The translations under genes and the position numbers were made by a program. The notes beneath the pieces were generated by a model. It was given only the letters and a program-made list of their open reading frames with translations. It made no database searches and had not been told where the DNA came from. A stretch of 64,000 nt of DNA, taken from positions 434,001 through 498,000 of the forward strand of contig JAEULJ010000007.1 of NCBI GenBank assembly GCA_016793865.1. Reading direction: 5' to 3'. Below, in pieces: positions 1-19,088 of the stretch. Source of the DNA: Altererythrobacter sp. GTDB taxonomy: Bacteria; Pseudomonadota; Alphaproteobacteria; Sphingomonadales; Sphingomonadaceae. Position 1 is the stretch's first letter. Every line of letters starts with the position of its first letter.

Positions 1-342
1 GCCGCCGGGCCCCGCCACCCCGCTGACCGCCACGGCGATGTCGGCATCGCTGCGGGCCAGGGCGCCCCGGGCCATCGCCCAGGCGCATGCGATCGACACC
101 GCGCCGAAGGTCTCGATGATATCGGTCGAGACACCCAGCTCCTGCATCTTGGACGCATTCGAATAGGTGACCCAGCCGCGATCGAGCACCTCGGAAGAGC
201 CGGGGATCTCTGTCAGCGCGGCAGCGACGAGCCCGCCGGTGCAGCTTTCCGCCAGCGCCACCTTGCGCCCGATGGCATGGTTCGCCTCGACCACCCGGCG
301 AGCCAGCGCGACAAGCGGGGCGGGGAGGGTGCAATCGTCCAT
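1..342 (-). CDS. CinA-family C-terminal amidase (partial)
   Basis: The window edge cuts off the 3' end, leaving the first 114 residues. The family hydrolyses nicotinamide mononucleotide to nicotinate mononucleotide in pyridine-nucleotide recycling. The visible part carries the family signature: AESCTGG near residue 31, the stretch [12 protein letters not shown], an LGVS segment, and SGVAGPGG at the cut. The protein begins directly with this domain, so it looks like the stand-alone C-terminal (PncC-like) form and not the long CinA fusion. The ATG at 342 lies 8 bp after the ispDF stop on the same strand, suggesting co-transcription. Confidence 0.85.
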
Positions 343-5230: not shown

Positions 5231-7459
5231 ATGGCCACCCAAGCGCGCCCCGATGGAATCCAGACGCCGCGCTGGCTGCGGCGGGTGATAGTCACCTCGC
5301 GCCGCTCCAACCTGTTTCCGCTGCTCGAGGCCCTGTGCGTCATCGGCGTTCTGGCGATGGCGTGGAGCGCCTATGTCGCCTTCAGCAGCGCGCCCGGCGA
5401 GGGGCGGCTGCTTCCCACGCGCCAGGTCGCAGCCCTGTTGATCGGCGCGCTGGTGCCGGCAATCGGCCTGCTGATGCTGCTCGGCCGGCGGCTGGCGCTG
5501 CGCCGCGCCGCGGGCAGCACGGCGCGCCTGCACCTGCGGCTGGTGTTCCTGTTCTCGCTCATTGCGGCGGTCCCCACGCTCCTCGTCGCCGGCTTTGCCG
5601 CCGTGCTGTTCCAGTCTGGCGTGGATTTCTGGTTTTCCAACGATTCGCGCGGCCTGATGGCCAATGCCAACAAGCTTGCCGAAAGCTATTACGCCGAAAA
5701 CCAGGAGGATGTCGCCAACAACACCATCGCGATGGCGAGCGATTTGCGATATTATCTTCAGAGCGTATCGCTGGTGAGCGAGAGCTGGCCGGCCATGTTC
5801 CGCTACCAGGCGGAACCGCGCGACATCACCGAAAGCGCGATCCTCCAGCAGCAGAAGGACGGCACGCTGCGGACGGCGTTCGTTTATGGGCTCGCCAGCA
5901 ACAACGACCCCGCCGGTTTCGTTTCCGCCGTCCTGCCCACGCTCCAGGCGGGGCAGCTGGTCGCGGTAAGGGGCGGGCCGGTGCGGATCGAGGCGGTCGC
6001 GCCCATCGACCGGGGCAGCGGCATCTATCTCTACACCGCCCGCAGCGCGGAGGCGAATTCGTTCCGGAGCTGGGAGGCGGCCAAGTCGATCGGTGCGGCC
6101 TACGAGGTGCTGACGGGGCGGGCCAGGGCGCTCCAATTGCGCTTCAACCTAGCGCTGTTCTTCGTCAGCCTGGCACTGGTCGGCTTCGCGGTGTGGTTCG
6201 CATTGCGGTTCGCGGACCGGCAGGTCCAGCCGCTGACCGATCTGGTGCTGGCCGCGCGCAAGGTGGGCGCGGGCAATTTCAGCCTGCGCATGGAAGGGCG
6301 CACCGGCGGCGACGAGATCGGTCTGCTCAACCGCGCCTTCAATCGAATGACGGTCCAGATCGAAAAGCAGACCGATGCGCTGGTCGGCGCCAACCGCCAG
6401 CTCGAGGAACGGCGGGGCTTCATCGAAGCGGTGATCCAGTCGGTCAGCGCGGGAGTGATGTCGCTCGACGGCACGGGCCGTATCCAGCTCATGAACGCTC
6501 CCGCCCAGGCCCTGCTGGGCGCTGCGGAAGGCGATGGAGGAGGGGCGCTTCACATCGACGAGGTGGCGCCGCAGATCGCCGCCATGGTCCTGGCCGGGCT
6601 GCGACAGGGGGTCATCAGCCATTCGCGCAGCGGCGAACTGCTGACGCTGGCGGTCAAGATCGCGCCCGAGAAGGATGGGCACGTCGTCACCGTCGAGGAC
6701 ATCACCCGCCAGCTCCTCGATCAGCGGCAGGCCGCCTGGTCCGATGTCGCGCGGCGGATCGCGCACGAGATCAAGAACCCGCTCACCCCGATCCAGCTCG
6801 CCACCGAGCGGCTGCGGCGCCGCTATCGCAAGCAGATCGAGCACGACGGCGAGCTGTTCGACGAGCTGACCAGCACCATCGTGCGCCAGGTCGGCGAACT
6901 CCGCACCATGGTGGACGAGTTCTCGTCCTTCGCGCGCCTCCCCAAGCCGGTGTTCCGGCCCGAAGACGCGCTCGATCTGGTGCGCCAGGCGCTGTTCCTC
7001 CAGGAAGTCGCCCATCCGGAGATCACCTACGACCTAGCGGGCGAGGTGGATGGACCGCTGCCCATCGCCTGCGACCGCCACCAGTTCGGCCAGGCCATGA
7101 CCAATGTGCTCAAGAACGCCGCGGAGGCGATCGACGCGCGGCAGAGAGATGAGGGCCAGGGCCCGGGCCTCGACTATCGCGGACGCATCGCTGTCACGCT
7201 CGAGAGCGCGGAGGAGGCGCTCTGCGTCGTCGTGGACGACAATGGCATCGGCCTGCCCAAGGATCGCGAGCGAATCGTGGAACCCTATGTGACCACGCGC
7301 GACAAGGGCACTGGGCTGGGCCTGGCGATCGTGAACAAGATCGTCGAGGAACACAGCGGCGAGATGAGCTTCTCGCCGCGCGCGGAAGGCGGCACCAGGG
7401 TAACCCTGCGATTTGCCAAGCTGCCTCAGGAAACCGCTTCAACCCCCGGTATTTCGTAA
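5231..7459 (+). CDS. ntrY: Membrane nitrogen sensor kinase NtrY
   Basis: The 742-residue inner-membrane histidine kinase is the partner of NtrX. N-terminal hydrophobic segments near residues 28-50, 60-80 and 95-120 plus one near 300-320 bracket a periplasmic sensor region. They are followed by HAMP (RKVGAGNFSLR), a PAS-like region, the kinase motif HEIKNPLTPIQL, N-box NVLKNAAEAID, DNGIGLPKDR and GTGLGLAIVNKIV. The ATG at 5231 precedes the first membrane segment; the frame stays open upstream but there overlaps ntrC. A short inverted repeat (CGGAG/CTCCG) in the 97-bp gap suggests ntrYX has its own leader. Confidence 0.94.
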   Translation: MATQARPDGIQTPRWLRRVIVTSRRSNLFPLLEALCVIGVLAMAWSAYVAFSSAPGEGRLLPTRQVAALLIGALVPAIGLLMLLGRRLALRRAAGSTARLHLRLVFLFSLIAAVPTLLVAGFAAVLFQSGVDFWFSNDSRGLMANANKLAESYYAENQEDVANNTIAMASDLRYYLQSVSLVSESWPAMFRYQAEPRDITESAILQQQKDGTLRTAFVYGLASNNDPAGFVSAVLPTLQAGQLVAVRGGPVRIEAVAPIDRGSGIYLYTARSAEANSFRSWEAAKSIGAAYEVLTGRARALQLRFNLALFFVSLALVGFAVWFALRFADRQVQPLTDLVLAARKVGAGNFSLRMEGRTGGDEIGLLNRAFNRMTVQIEKQTDALVGANRQLEERRGFIEAVIQSVSAGVMSLDGTGRIQLMNAPAQALLGAAEGDGGGALHIDEVAPQIAAMVLAGLRQGVISHSRSGELLTLAVKIAPEKDGHVVTVEDITRQLLDQRQAAWSDVARRIAHEIKNPLTPIQLATERLRRRYRKQIEHDGELFDELTSTIVRQVGELRTMVDEFSSFARLPKPVFRPEDALDLVRQALFLQEVAHPEITYDLAGEVDGPLPIACDRHQFGQAMTNVLKNAAEAIDARQRDEGQGPGLDYRGRIAVTLESAEEALCVVVDDNGIGLPKDRERIVEPYVTTRDKGTGLGLAIVNKIVEEHSGEMSFSPRAEGGTRVTLRFAKLPQETASTPGIS

Positions 7460-7478
7460 TGAAAGTAGAGTACGCGCG

Positions 7479-8864
7479 ATGGCCCTAGAGATTCTCGTCG
7501 TGGATGACGAACGCGATATCCGCGAGCTTGTCGCCGGAGTGCTGAGCGACGAGGGCTACGCCTGCCGCACCTCGGGCGACAGCGCCAGCGCCCTGGCCGA
7601 GATCGACCGCAAGCGCCCCAGCCTCGTCCTGCTCGACGTATGGCTCCACGGCAGCCCGATGGACGGGCTGGAGGTGCTTGACGCGATCAAGAGCCGCGAG
7701 CCCGATCTGCCGGTCATCATCTTCTCCGGCCACGGCAATATCGACACCGCCGTTTCCGCGGTGAGCCGCGGCGCGATGGATTTCATCGAAAAGCCGTTCG
7801 AAGCCGAAAAGCTGCTCCACCTGGTCGAGCGTGCGACCGAGACCGAGCGGCTGCGGCGGGAGAACATCCGCCTCAAGAGCGCCGCGCCCATCGGCGAGGA
7901 GTTCACCGGCAACAGCGTGGCGATCAATGCGGTGCGCGCCACCCTGAAGCGCGTCGCGGGCACCGGCAGCAGGGTGCTCATCACCGGCCCTGGCGGGGCG
8001 GGCAAGGAAGTCGCGGCCCGGCTGCTGCACGCCTGGAGCAACCGCGCCGACAAGCCGTTCGTGACGGTGAATTCGGCGCGCATCACGCCCGAACGCTTCG
8101 AACACGAGCTGTTCGGCGAGGAGCAGGACGGGCGGCTGCTGCGCGCGGGACTGCTTGAGATGGCGGACGGCGGCACGCTCTACCTCGACGAGGTGGCCGA
8201 TATGCCGCTTTCGACCCAGGCGCGCATACTTCGCGTGCTGACCGACCAGAGCTTCGTTCGGGTCGGGGGCGTGCGGCAGATCGGCGTGGACGTGCGGGTG
8301 GTCTCCTCGAGCGCACGCGATCTCGCCGGCGAGATGGCGGACAAGCGCTTCCGCGAGGATCTGTTCTACCGCCTCAACGTGGTGCCCGTGGCGATCCCGT
8401 CGCTGGGCGAGCGGCGCGCCGACATTCCGGCGCTGGCCGAGCATTTCTTCACCCGCTACGCCTCCGAGCAGGGCCTGCCGGCGCCGCGCATCAGCGAAGA
8501 GGCGATGGCCGCGCTTCAGGCCTATGACTGGCCAGGCAACGTCCGCCAGCTCCGCAATGTGGTCGAGCGTGCGATCATCCTGGCCCCACGCGAAAAGCTG
8601 GACGTGATCGAGCCGGACATGCTCGGCTCCGAGGTTATCGAGAGCCGCTCGGGCGGGGGAGGGGCGATGGCATCGCTGATGGGAGCGCCGCTCCGCGAGG
8701 CGCGCGAGAGTTTCGAGCGCGAGTATCTGGCGGTCCAGATCCGGCGCTTCTCGGGCAATATCTCCAAGACCGCCAGCTTCATCGGGATGGAGCGATCCGC
8801 CTTGCACCGCAAGCTCAAGCTTCTCGGCATGGCCGATCGGAACAACGGCGACGAGAGCGACTGA
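7479..8864 (+). CDS. ntrX: NtrX response regulator with degenerate GAFTGA loop
   Basis: The 461-residue regulator pairs with NtrY. It has a receiver with Asp53 (LLDVWL), an AAA+ domain with Walker A ITGPGGAGKE (168-177) and Walker B LYLDEVAD, and a C-terminal Fis-type helix-turn-helix (ISKTASFIGMERSALHRK). The place where sigma-54 activators carry GAFTGA reads GEEQDGRLLRAGLLEM (213-228), so the sigma-54 contact loop is absent. Walker A also has PGGAGKE in place of ESGTGKE. This matches what is known of several alphaproteobacterial NtrX proteins and implies action without sigma-54. The ATG at 7479 is 19 bp after the ntrY stop. Confidence 0.93.
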   Translation: MALEILVVDDERDIRELVAGVLSDEGYACRTSGDSASALAEIDRKRPSLVLLDVWLHGSPMDGLEVLDAIKSREPDLPVIIFSGHGNIDTAVSAVSRGAMDFIEKPFEAEKLLHLVERATETERLRRENIRLKSAAPIGEEFTGNSVAINAVRATLKRVAGTGSRVLITGPGGAGKEVAARLLHAWSNRADKPFVTVNSARITPERFEHELFGEEQDGRLLRAGLLEMADGGTLYLDEVADMPLSTQARILRVLTDQSFVRVGGVRQIGVDVRVVSSSARDLAGEMADKRFREDLFYRLNVVPVAIPSLGERRADIPALAEHFFTRYASEQGLPAPRISEEAMAALQAYDWPGNVRQLRNVVERAIILAPREKLDVIEPDMLGSEVIESRSGGGGAMASLMGAPLREARESFEREYLAVQIRRFSGNISKTASFIGMERSALHRKLKLLGMADRNNGDESD

Positions 8865-8986
8865 GAGCGCTGCCGATCGTTCGCGGAACGCTCCGGCAAA
8901 AAGACCGTTGGCGAACGCGGCGCGCGTCACCATAAAGGCATCGACAGCGGGATCGGCGCGGCTTCGGCGGCGCGGCATCCCAGATC

Positions 8987-9006
8987 GCGGGACTGCCGTG
9001 TCCCGC
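8987..9006 (+). promoter_or_regulatory. Leader hairpin just upstream of the hfq ribosome site
   Basis: A perfect 7-bp stem (GCGGGAC / GTCCCGC) with a 6-base loop ends 7 bases before the AGGAG (9014-9018) that precedes the hfq ATG. It is well placed to influence hfq translation. Hfq autoregulates at its own leader in other bacteria; here that is only inference. Confidence 0.35.
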
Positions 9007-9026
9007 CAACAACAGGAGCGAAGTCA

Positions 9027-9602
9027 ATGGCGTCCGAGCGAACCCTTACCGCGCGCCCGCGTGCACCCAAGCCGGCCCCGGAACCGAAGGCACCCAGCAG
9101 CACCGCTTCCGCCAAGGGCGGGGGCAAGGGCGGGCAAAGCCTGCAGGACGCCTTCCTCAACCTGCTGCGCAAGACCAAGGCGCCGGTGACCATGTTCCTG
9201 GTGAAAGGGGTCAAGCTCCAGGGAATCGTCACCTGGTTCGACAATTTCTCCATCCTGCTGCGCCGCGATGGCCAGTCGCAACTCGTGTACAAGCACGCGA
9301 TCTCCACCATCATGCCGGGCGGCCCGATGGACGCCTCCCAGTTCGAGAGCCAGGGCCAGGCGAGCAAGCAGCGCCTGTTGCAGGACGTTTTCCTGAGCCG
9401 GGTCGCCGAGGCGGAGGCGCAGGTGACCATGTTCCTGGTCAATGGCGTGATGCTGCAGGGCAAGATCGCCGCCTATGACCTGTTCTGCATGATGCTGGAG
9501 CGCGAAGGCTACGTCCAGTTGGCCTACAAGCACGCCGTCTCCACGATCCAGCCTGCCACCGCCGTGGACCTGAGCGAGGATTTCGAGGGCGACGAGACCT
9601 GA
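9027..9602 (+). CDS. hfq: Tandem-domain RNA chaperone Hfq (two Sm domains)
   Basis: The 191-residue protein carries two complete Hfq Sm folds in one chain, at about 37-97 and 116-176. They are joined by a short linker and preceded by a Pro/Lys/Gly-rich tail. Normal Hfq has one such domain and works as a hexamer pairing sRNAs with mRNAs. Both halves keep LQD near the start and the YKHA(I/V)STI Sm2 motif. Domain 1 keeps a basic rim (LRKTKAP) and the Lys of VKLQG. Domain 2 has AEAEA at the rim and Met in VMLQG, so the halves are not equivalent. AGGAG lies 8 bases before the ATG. Upstream ntrX and downstream hflX match the usual alphaproteobacterial order. Confidence 0.95.
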
Positions 9603-9628
9603 ACTTCGGCGACGATCTCGATGGAGAG

Positions 9629-10909
9629 GTGACGCGCGGCGCGCGGGCGCTGGTGGTTTGCCCGGATATCCGCGGACAGCGCCACGACCTCGCGGCCGAG
9701 GAGCGGCTGGAGGAAGCGCGCGGCCTCGCTCTGGCGATCGGGCTGGTGGTGGCCGACAGTTTCGTGCTGCCTGTCCGCGACGTGAAGCCCAATTTGCTGT
9801 TCGGATCGGGCCAGGTCGAAAACATCGCCATCGCCGCGGACCAGAACGGCGCGGAACTGGTGGTGGTCGATGGCGCGCTGACCCCGATCCAGCAGCGCAA
9901 TCTGGAAGATCGCCTGAAACGCAAGGTGATCGACCGGACAGGGCTGATCCTCGAGATATTCGGTGAACGGGCCGCCACCGCCGAAGGGCGGTTGCAGGTG
10001 GAGCTGGCGCATCTCGATTACCAGCAGAGCCGCCTGGTCCGAAGCTGGACTCACCTCGAGCGCCAGCGCGGCGGCTTCGGCTTCCTCGGCGGCCCGGGCG
10101 AGACGCAGATCGAGGCCGACCGCCGCATGATCCGCCAGCGCATGGGGCGGCTTCGGCGCGAGCTGGAACAGGTCCGCCGCACCCGCGCGCTGCACCGAGA
10201 ACGGCGCGGCAGGGCGCCGTGGCCGGTGATCGCGCTGGTTGGCTATACCAATGCCGGCAAATCCACGCTGTTCAACCGGCTGACCGGTGCGGAGGTGATG
10301 GCCGAAGACCTGCTGTTCGCCACGCTCGATCCCACGATGCGCGCGATCGCGCTGCCGGGGGTGGAAAAGGCGATCCTGTCGGACACGGTGGGTTTCATCT
10401 CCGACCTGCCGACACAGCTCGTCGCCGCCTTTCGGGCGACGCTGGAGGAGGTCACCGCGGCCGACGTGATCTGCCATGTCCGCGACATGGCGAACGAGGC
10501 CGCCGGCGCGCAGAAGACGCAGGTGCTCGCGATTCTCGAGGAACTCGGGGTGACCGCGGAACAGGGCGGGCCGAGCCGGATCCCGATCATCGAGGTGTGG
10601 AACAAGTGGGACCTGGTAGCGGGAGAGCGGCGCGACGAGCTGGAGCCGCTGGCCGCCGGAACCGATGACGTGGTGACGGTATCGGCGCTGACGGGGGAGG
10701 GTGTCGATGCATTGCTGGCCCGTCTCGGCCAGATGCTCACCGGCGGCGCGCGGCTGCTGGAATTGAACATCCCCGCCAATGACGGCCGCCGCCTCGCCTG
10801 GCTCCACGCGCATGGCGAGGTGCTGGAAGATTCACAATCTAGCGGAGACGAGCGCCTGGTTCGCGTGCGACTGGGCGCAAAGGAATTGGGCCAGTTCGAA
10901 CGGTTGTGA
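9629..10909 (+). CDS. hflX: Ribosome-associated GTPase HflX
   Basis: The 426-residue GTPase rescues or splits stalled ribosomes under stress in the bacteria where it has been studied. The N-terminal half has the family stretches NLLFGSGQVE and VVVDGALTPIQQRNLE, then a basic coiled region after GGFGFLGGPGETQIE. The G domain shows GYTNAGKSTLFN (G1, about 207), DTVGFISDLP (G3) and NKWD (G4). The GTG at 9629 is 26 bp after hfq. An in-frame CTG overlapping the hfq stop is an alternative start, so the N-terminus is uncertain by about 10 residues. Confidence 0.93.
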   Translation: MTRGARALVVCPDIRGQRHDLAAEERLEEARGLALAIGLVVADSFVLPVRDVKPNLLFGSGQVENIAIAADQNGAELVVVDGALTPIQQRNLEDRLKRKVIDRTGLILEIFGERAATAEGRLQVELAHLDYQQSRLVRSWTHLERQRGGFGFLGGPGETQIEADRRMIRQRMGRLRRELEQVRRTRALHRERRGRAPWPVIALVGYTNAGKSTLFNRLTGAEVMAEDLLFATLDPTMRAIALPGVEKAILSDTVGFISDLPTQLVAAFRATLEEVTAADVICHVRDMANEAAGAQKTQVLAILEELGVTAEQGGPSRIPIIEVWNKWDLVAGERRDELEPLAAGTDDVVTVSALTGEGVDALLARLGQMLTGGARLLELNIPANDGRRLAWLHAHGEVLEDSQSSGDERLVRVRLGAKELGQFERL

Positions 10910-18998: not shown

Positions 18999-19088
18999 GG
19001 ACAGGTGGCCGAGTGGTTTAAGGCAGCGGTCTTGAAAACCGCCGTGGGTTCGCGCTCACCGTGGGTTCGAATCCCACCCTGTCCGCCA
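18999..19088 (+). tRNA. tRNA-Ser (anticodon TGA)
   Basis: The 90-base gene has a 7-bp acceptor stem (GGACAGG / CCTGTCC), an anticodon stem GCGGT/ACCGC enclosing CTTGAAA with anticodon TGA at 19033-19035, a long variable arm typical of serine tRNAs, a T-loop GTTCGAATC and an encoded CCA at 19086-19088. No integrase or duplicated 3' end was seen beside it, so no island attachment is inferred. Confidence 0.97.

Follow-up and report, generated by a model that had tools for sequence, protein, structure and literature searches.

The stretch of DNA analysed (64 kb, hereafter the window) carries a tandem form of hfq, preceded by a Shine-Dalgarno-like element and flanked by ORFs which we take to be ntrX (upstream) and hflX (downstream); the features of the gene and its product are collected in Table 1. 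The Hfq profile PF17209 matched twice in one frame of this ORF (103.3 and 78.8 bits; cut-off 27) and the translation agreed, which bears out the preliminary description of a 191-residue chain with two Hfq domains. The whole protein scored 177.8 bits with PF17209 and 167.6 bits with TIGR02383 (cut-off 61.7). The NCBIfam equivalog NF010691 (PRK14091.1, RNA chaperone Hfq, 176 positions), which models the tandem at full length, matched residues 32–190 in one stretch with 289.4 bits (cut-off 270), leaving most of the N-terminal extension outside the matched stretch. A PF17209 scan (E 0.001) revealed no further Hfq match in the 2.56 Mb genome from which the window comes; the tandem gene is the sole Hfq found there. 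Scanning positions 8800–9700 for promoters and terminators gave no hits, and over the whole window Rfam returned a single match above its cut-off, a tRNA gene at 18999–19085.

Table 1. Features of the tandem hfq gene, its product and its neighbours (positions in the window; residue numbers of the 191-residue protein)
Feature	Position	Strand	Basis or remark
ntrX, upstream neighbour of hfq	7413-8864		ORF call; name presumed
AGGAG, Shine-Dalgarno-like, 8 nt 5′ of the ATG	9014..9018	+	read from sequence
hfq, tandem form, 191 aa + stop	9027..9602	+	ORF and translation, profile matches
N-terminal extension, residues 1-35	9027..9131	+	found in part of the family
Motif RTLTARPR, residues 5-12	9039..9062	+	inside the N-terminal extension
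Hfq domain 1, residues 36-100	9132..9326	+	profile, alignment, predicted structure
Domain 1 secondary structure: helix 39-50; strands 53-58, 63-71, 75-80, 83-88, 92-97			predicted
Domain 1 rim RKTK (E. coli 16-19), basic	9168..9179	+	alignment
Domain 1 distal loop KGVK: K60 (E. coli 28), K63 (E. coli 31)	9204..9215	+	alignment
Domain 1 YKH, proximal pocket	9288..9296	+	alignment, translation
Inter-domain linker, residues 101-114	9327..9368	+	
Hfq domain 2, residues 115-179	9369..9563	+	profile, alignment, predicted structure
Domain 2 secondary structure: helix 118-128; strands 132-137, 142-150, 154-159, 162-167, 171-176			predicted
Domain 2 rim AEAE (E. coli 16-19)	9405..9416	+	alignment
Domain 2 distal loop NGVM: N139 (E. 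coli 28), M142 (E. coli 31)	9441..9452	+	alignment
Domain 2 YKH, proximal pocket	9525..9533	+	alignment, translation
Q175 (E. coli 63), signature of domain 2	9549..9551	+	
Acidic C-terminal tail, short, residues 180-191	9564..9599	+	
hflX, downstream neighbour of hfq	9629..10909	+	ORF call; name presumed

Alignment to single-domain Hfq placed an LQD and a YKH motif in each half, and RKTK and AEAE at the rims of domains 1 and 2 respectively, all as first described. The E. coli numbering used throughout agrees with the E. coli row printed in the search alignment. The preliminary description depended on domain 2 having an Sm fold, and this holds both by the profile match (78.8 bits) and in the predicted model. 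AlphaFold2, supplied with a 104-row alignment, predicted a helix and a five-stranded Sm sheet in both halves, with a mean pLDDT of 89.7 (96–98 in most domain-2 blocks) and a pTM of 0.77, a value that is no proof that the two domains are ring neighbours. With 10 rows only, the pLDDT was 37.6, and the confident prediction thus hinges on the full 104 rows; the alignment for inter-domain covariation had an effective depth of ∼8. The 50 Foldseek matches shown, which came with no query residue ranges, were all Hfq chains, Caulobacter at the top with 74% identity; those at 38–40% identity may belong to domain 2 of the model.

Hfq, a helper in RNA pairing, is normally a homohexameric ring, and in Caulobacter too the ring consists of identical subunits. 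A remark on tandem Hfq in Novosphingobium reportedly goes back to a 2002 survey of Hfq. The Caulobacter protein (PDB 6gwk) was the best solved relative both by sequence (residues 36–103, E 1.6e-29) and by fold; it has a single domain, with RKSK at its rim, N28 and K31. E. coli Hfq shares the Sm fold and Q8, K56 and H57 with the window protein but is also single-domain, and the same arginine-rich RRER rim segment recurs in every subunit (PMC5379935). Burkholderia has two Hfq copies per genome, as the separate genes hfq and hfq2, and Novosphingobium aromaticivorans is listed among organisms with two hfq-like copies (PMC3474761); the two copies of N. aromaticivorans may be the fused form. By its description in a 2010 account, Zymomonas mobilis ZMO0347 resembles the window protein in having two Sm-like domains per chain, as do the Hfq proteins of six other Sphingomonadales species (PMC2877685). 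That account proposed testing whether merely three proteins form the ring; unequal faces are not discussed in the portions of it available. Excerpts of three further papers on Zymomonas (PMC9797736, PMC5770649 and PMC4004385) held no structural information on Hfq. In a literature search thin in subscription journals, no paper came up on surface differences between the halves of tandem Hfq, nor any published test of its ring assembly. The fusion architecture was thus already known, and no prior description was found of fixed differences in the RNA-contacting residues.

The distribution of the tandem form was examined by profile scan in a sample of the order, in which Hfq was found in 290 of 296 genomes. 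By hand count, the family of the window (213 genomes, its own included) had two Hfq matches in 202 genomes and one in 11, and none of the 202 showed a third. In other families of the order, a single match was found in 76 of 77 Hfq-bearing genomes, the remaining one (G001) having two on different contigs. There the second hfq (locus L246, contig C82) was truncated by the contig end, and it may be a paralogue or contamination. ORFs were read in 113 of the 202 two-match genomes, that of the window included, and all 112 tandem loci fetched held both domains in one ORF. A frameshift or an assembly fusion was thereby ruled out, given two matches in 202 of 213 family genomes. Scores over the NF010691 cut-off were obtained in 5 of 385 genomes of a class sample and 17 of 398 of a phylum sample, all from the window's family, these being sample scans in which eroded tandems would fall under the cut-off; one genome of the family (G071) gave a full-length match of 261.2 bits, slightly under it. 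In the genomes sampled, tandem Hfq is confined to one alphaproteobacterial family.

To compare the two halves, residues were counted in 183 non-redundant tandem and 45 single-domain proteins. The tandem set comprised 103 proteins from genomes of 40 genera, 79 from named loci, and the window; the named loci derive from the best 80 of 502 relatives, which biases the set toward near kin of the window. Two copies of the window locus (L001 and L002) and loci identical across the domain span were left out, 228 of 253 being kept. One genus, g12, was represented by 18 of its 22 genomes (loci L166–L183).

The firmest asymmetry between the halves is that at distal positions 28 and 31. All 45 single-domain proteins had N and K at these positions. 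Domain 1 had K/K in 174 of the 183 tandem proteins and K/R in nine, and domain 2 had N/M in 176 (N28 in 182). Every one of the nine departures from the pattern K/K with N/M came from g12, a genus with genomes of 2.1–2.9 Mb; in several of its species the tandem Hfq is short and shows erosion of each half. In the proteins from outside g12, K28 in domain 1 and M31 and Q63 in domain 2 were each present in 165 of 165; over the full set Q63 was found in 177 of 183 domain 2s, and M63 in nearly all single-domain proteins and domain 1s. Summed over both domains, the basic residues at 28 and 31 numbered two in 181 proteins and three in the other two, and two single subunits also total two (45/45); this constancy may stem from a single ancestral substitution pair and is possibly a coincidence. 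As had been proposed, the counterpart of Lys31 is a Lys in domain 1 (Lys63) and a Met in domain 2 (Met142), but the face concerned is the distal and not, as was then stated, the proximal one (PMC12262471, PMC7987339). In E. coli, replacing the distal-face residue K31 with alanine cut RIL-seq S-chimeras almost fourfold (PMC12262471, a preprint). In another study, K31A lowered the mRNA-associated Hfq fraction to ∼26% (PMC7987339). In simulations of Pseudomonas Hfq, the main chain at residues 28 and 31 lies at the distal RNA pockets (PMC8121710), a position consistent by analogy with a role for the lysine swap, although not a demonstration of one.

At the rim, R16 was present in all 183 domain 1s, and positions 16, 17 and 19 were all basic in 177 of them, as in 45/45 single-domain proteins. 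In domain 2 the corresponding positions held at most one basic residue in 156 of 183 proteins (none in 37, a single one in 119); 26 proteins had two there and one protein had three. In studied Hfq proteins each subunit bears a basic rim, a functional feature that lies outside the Pfam definition; here domain 1 has one and domain 2 does not. Asn13, which solved structures show as part of the rim uridine pocket (PMC5379935), was present in 183/183 domain 1s and in only 18 domain 2s, having been lost in 165. The preliminary description had contrasted a basic rim with an acidic one. The inequality stood up, the rim net charge of domain 1 being higher than that of domain 2 in 177 of 183 proteins (equal in four, lower in two); the acidity did not, since exact AEAE occurred in only 7/183 and the net charge of the domain 2 rim, ranging from –2 to +3, was negative in 67 proteins and positive in 54, the other 62 being neutral. 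Domain 2 thus has a diminished basic rim, but not as a rule an acidic one. Arg16, replaced by Ala in domain 2 of the window, was kept in 126 of 183 domain 2s; given this and the greater variability of domain 2, its rim may still be active in most relatives. In the E. coli R16A rim mutant, RIL-seq S-chimeras were nearly gone and regulatory function was partly kept (PMC12262471, a preprint).

The proximal pocket was retained in both halves. Q8 and K56 were present in 183/183 proteins in each half and H57 in 179 domain 1s and 183 domain 2s, so that the window and 179 of the 183 tandem proteins possess all three residues twice. Domain 2 as a whole was somewhat less constrained. A variable and relaxed domain 2, which had been named at the outset as an outcome that would count against the preliminary description, was found only in small part: mean column entropy was 0.56 bits against 0.27 bits in domain 1, with positions 17, 19, 20, 35 and 50 highly variable, but dN/dS was 0.21 against 0.16 (544 non-independent pairs pooled, outside g12). 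These values indicate a domain 2 that is somewhat freer, yet under purifying selection.

The origin of the fusion was traced through the neighbouring genes. The genes ntrX and hflX both adjoin hfq in all 11 single-domain loci of the family and in all but two of the 183 tandem loci (181); in the stretch examined around 36 single-domain loci of other families, hflX was nearby in 35 and ntrX in two. In a tree of HflX plus NtrX from 74 loci (53 tandem loci chosen from the 183, the 11 family singles and 10 outgroup loci, of which L009 and L125 come from one genome), the 53 tandem loci split from all singles with a branch support of 99.9/99. The family singles sat outside the tandem group as several lines, their order and other deep branches being less well supported. 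In a tree of the domains themselves, built on 65 columns with long-branch warnings and a bootstrap that had not settled, all 68 domain 2s tested formed one clade (100/89), the family singles grouped with other singles, and domain 1 was unresolved. The family singles look ancestral rather than reverted because they carry N28 and not the K28 of domain 1. One duplication in place, followed by fusion, is the simplest account. As far as tested, repeated fusion or loss was ruled out by the 99.9/99 branch, and the account involves no reversion among the 53 tandem loci.

Since the 202 two-match genomes lack a third Hfq match, the tandem chain alone should supply the ring, and with no second hfq found there would be nothing to mix into it. 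Three chains would provide six Sm domains, sufficient for one ring. We give a probability of roughly 0.55 to the reading that three chains form one pseudo-hexameric ring in which domains 1 and 2 alternate; the computed mass of three chains is 62.4 kDa. All six proximal pockets (Q8, K56, H57) of such a ring should still bind the U-rich 3′-ends of sRNAs, which should bind normally because each half keeps the pocket. At the rim and on the distal face, the symmetry would become threefold. Domain 1 would offer a full basic rim for sRNA–mRNA annealing together with a doubly basic distal loop, and domain 2 an eroded rim pocket and a neutral distal loop. On the distal face, which binds mRNA, the lysines have shifted, with K28 acquired and K31 retained in domain 1 and Met replacing K31 in domain 2; their tally stays at two per domain pair, which would make six per ring, on alternate subunits. 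In E. coli, RNA and the acidic tip of the C-terminus compete at the basic rim (PMC5606850); as the acidic tail here lies behind domain 2, each full rim would be matched by a single tail. Taken further, duplication and fusion would have replaced the sixfold symmetry by a threefold arrangement fixed on two faces together, with the distal lysines relocated and the full rim present only on domain 1, such that three strong mRNA-binding and annealing stations alternate with three weaker ones around an unchanged sixfold sRNA pocket. We put forward this fuller version tentatively, as a possibility rather than an expectation.

The differences between the halves might instead reflect mild decay without new function, domain 2 acting as a structural filler under weaker constraint that completes the ring and keeps the proximal pore. 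The slightly higher dN/dS (0.21 vs 0.16), the doubled entropy, the wide variation at positions 17, 19, 20, 35 and 50, and the erosion of both halves in several g12 species would all fit such a filler. However, decay alone is not expected to fix new residues and hold them, and the derived M31 and Q63 of domain 2 and K28 of domain 1 are invariant outside g12 (165/165), which makes this explanation rather unlikely. The family-wide counts bear likewise on the suggestion that the unequal rims are peculiar to the window species, its AEAE having no meaning for the family at large. The rarity of exact AEAE (7/183), the spread of domain 2 rim charge from –2 to +3 and the retention of R16 in 126/183 domain 2s are what such a peculiarity would produce, but a rim charge below that of domain 1 in 177/183 proteins and the loss of N13 in 165/183 are not, and we regard it as very unlikely.

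The linker, which has 14–16 residues in 165 of 183 tandem proteins, may permit arrangements other than an alternating ring. Six chains could assemble as a pair of stacked rings joined by linkers of compatible length, one ring built of domain 1 only and the other of domain 2 only, with six copies in each and different RNA preferences; a crystal form of Aquifex Hfq contains a head-to-tail dodecamer of two rings (PMC5379935). Such stacking appears quite improbable given that the distal lysine count is preserved only as a sum over both domains.

The number of active sites needed per ring is hard to ask of ordinary Hfq, because a mutation hits all six subunits. The halves of the tandem gene can be mutated separately, which would allow a test of how many rims and distal lysines each ring requires. 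Were the alternating ring to be confirmed, three full basic rims per ring would suffice across most of the family, and tandem Hfq would be a ready tool for counting active sites. If the fixed threefold pattern also holds, bacteria would have a counterpart to the eukaryotic Sm/LSm rings with their specialised subunits. Tandem Hfq is also relevant to Zymomonas strain design, hfq having an influence on tolerance to pretreatment inhibitors in that organism (PMC2877685). Within the order, joint action of Hfq and sRNAs is reported for Sphingopyxis granuli, in which repression of thnR by SuhB is Hfq-dependent (PMC6563040).

Some features outside the domains were also recorded. Linker residue F106 (9342–9344) was invariant in the 10 rows of one alignment, a hint that the linker may dock on the ring. 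Among the 183 tandem proteins, 171 had a C-terminal tail with a net charge of –3 or below. At the other end of the chain, the sequence ARP occurred within the 60 residues N-terminal to domain 1 in 99/183 tandem proteins and in 2/45 single-domain ones, and many other tandem proteins begin with MADK or MAEK immediately ahead of domain 1.
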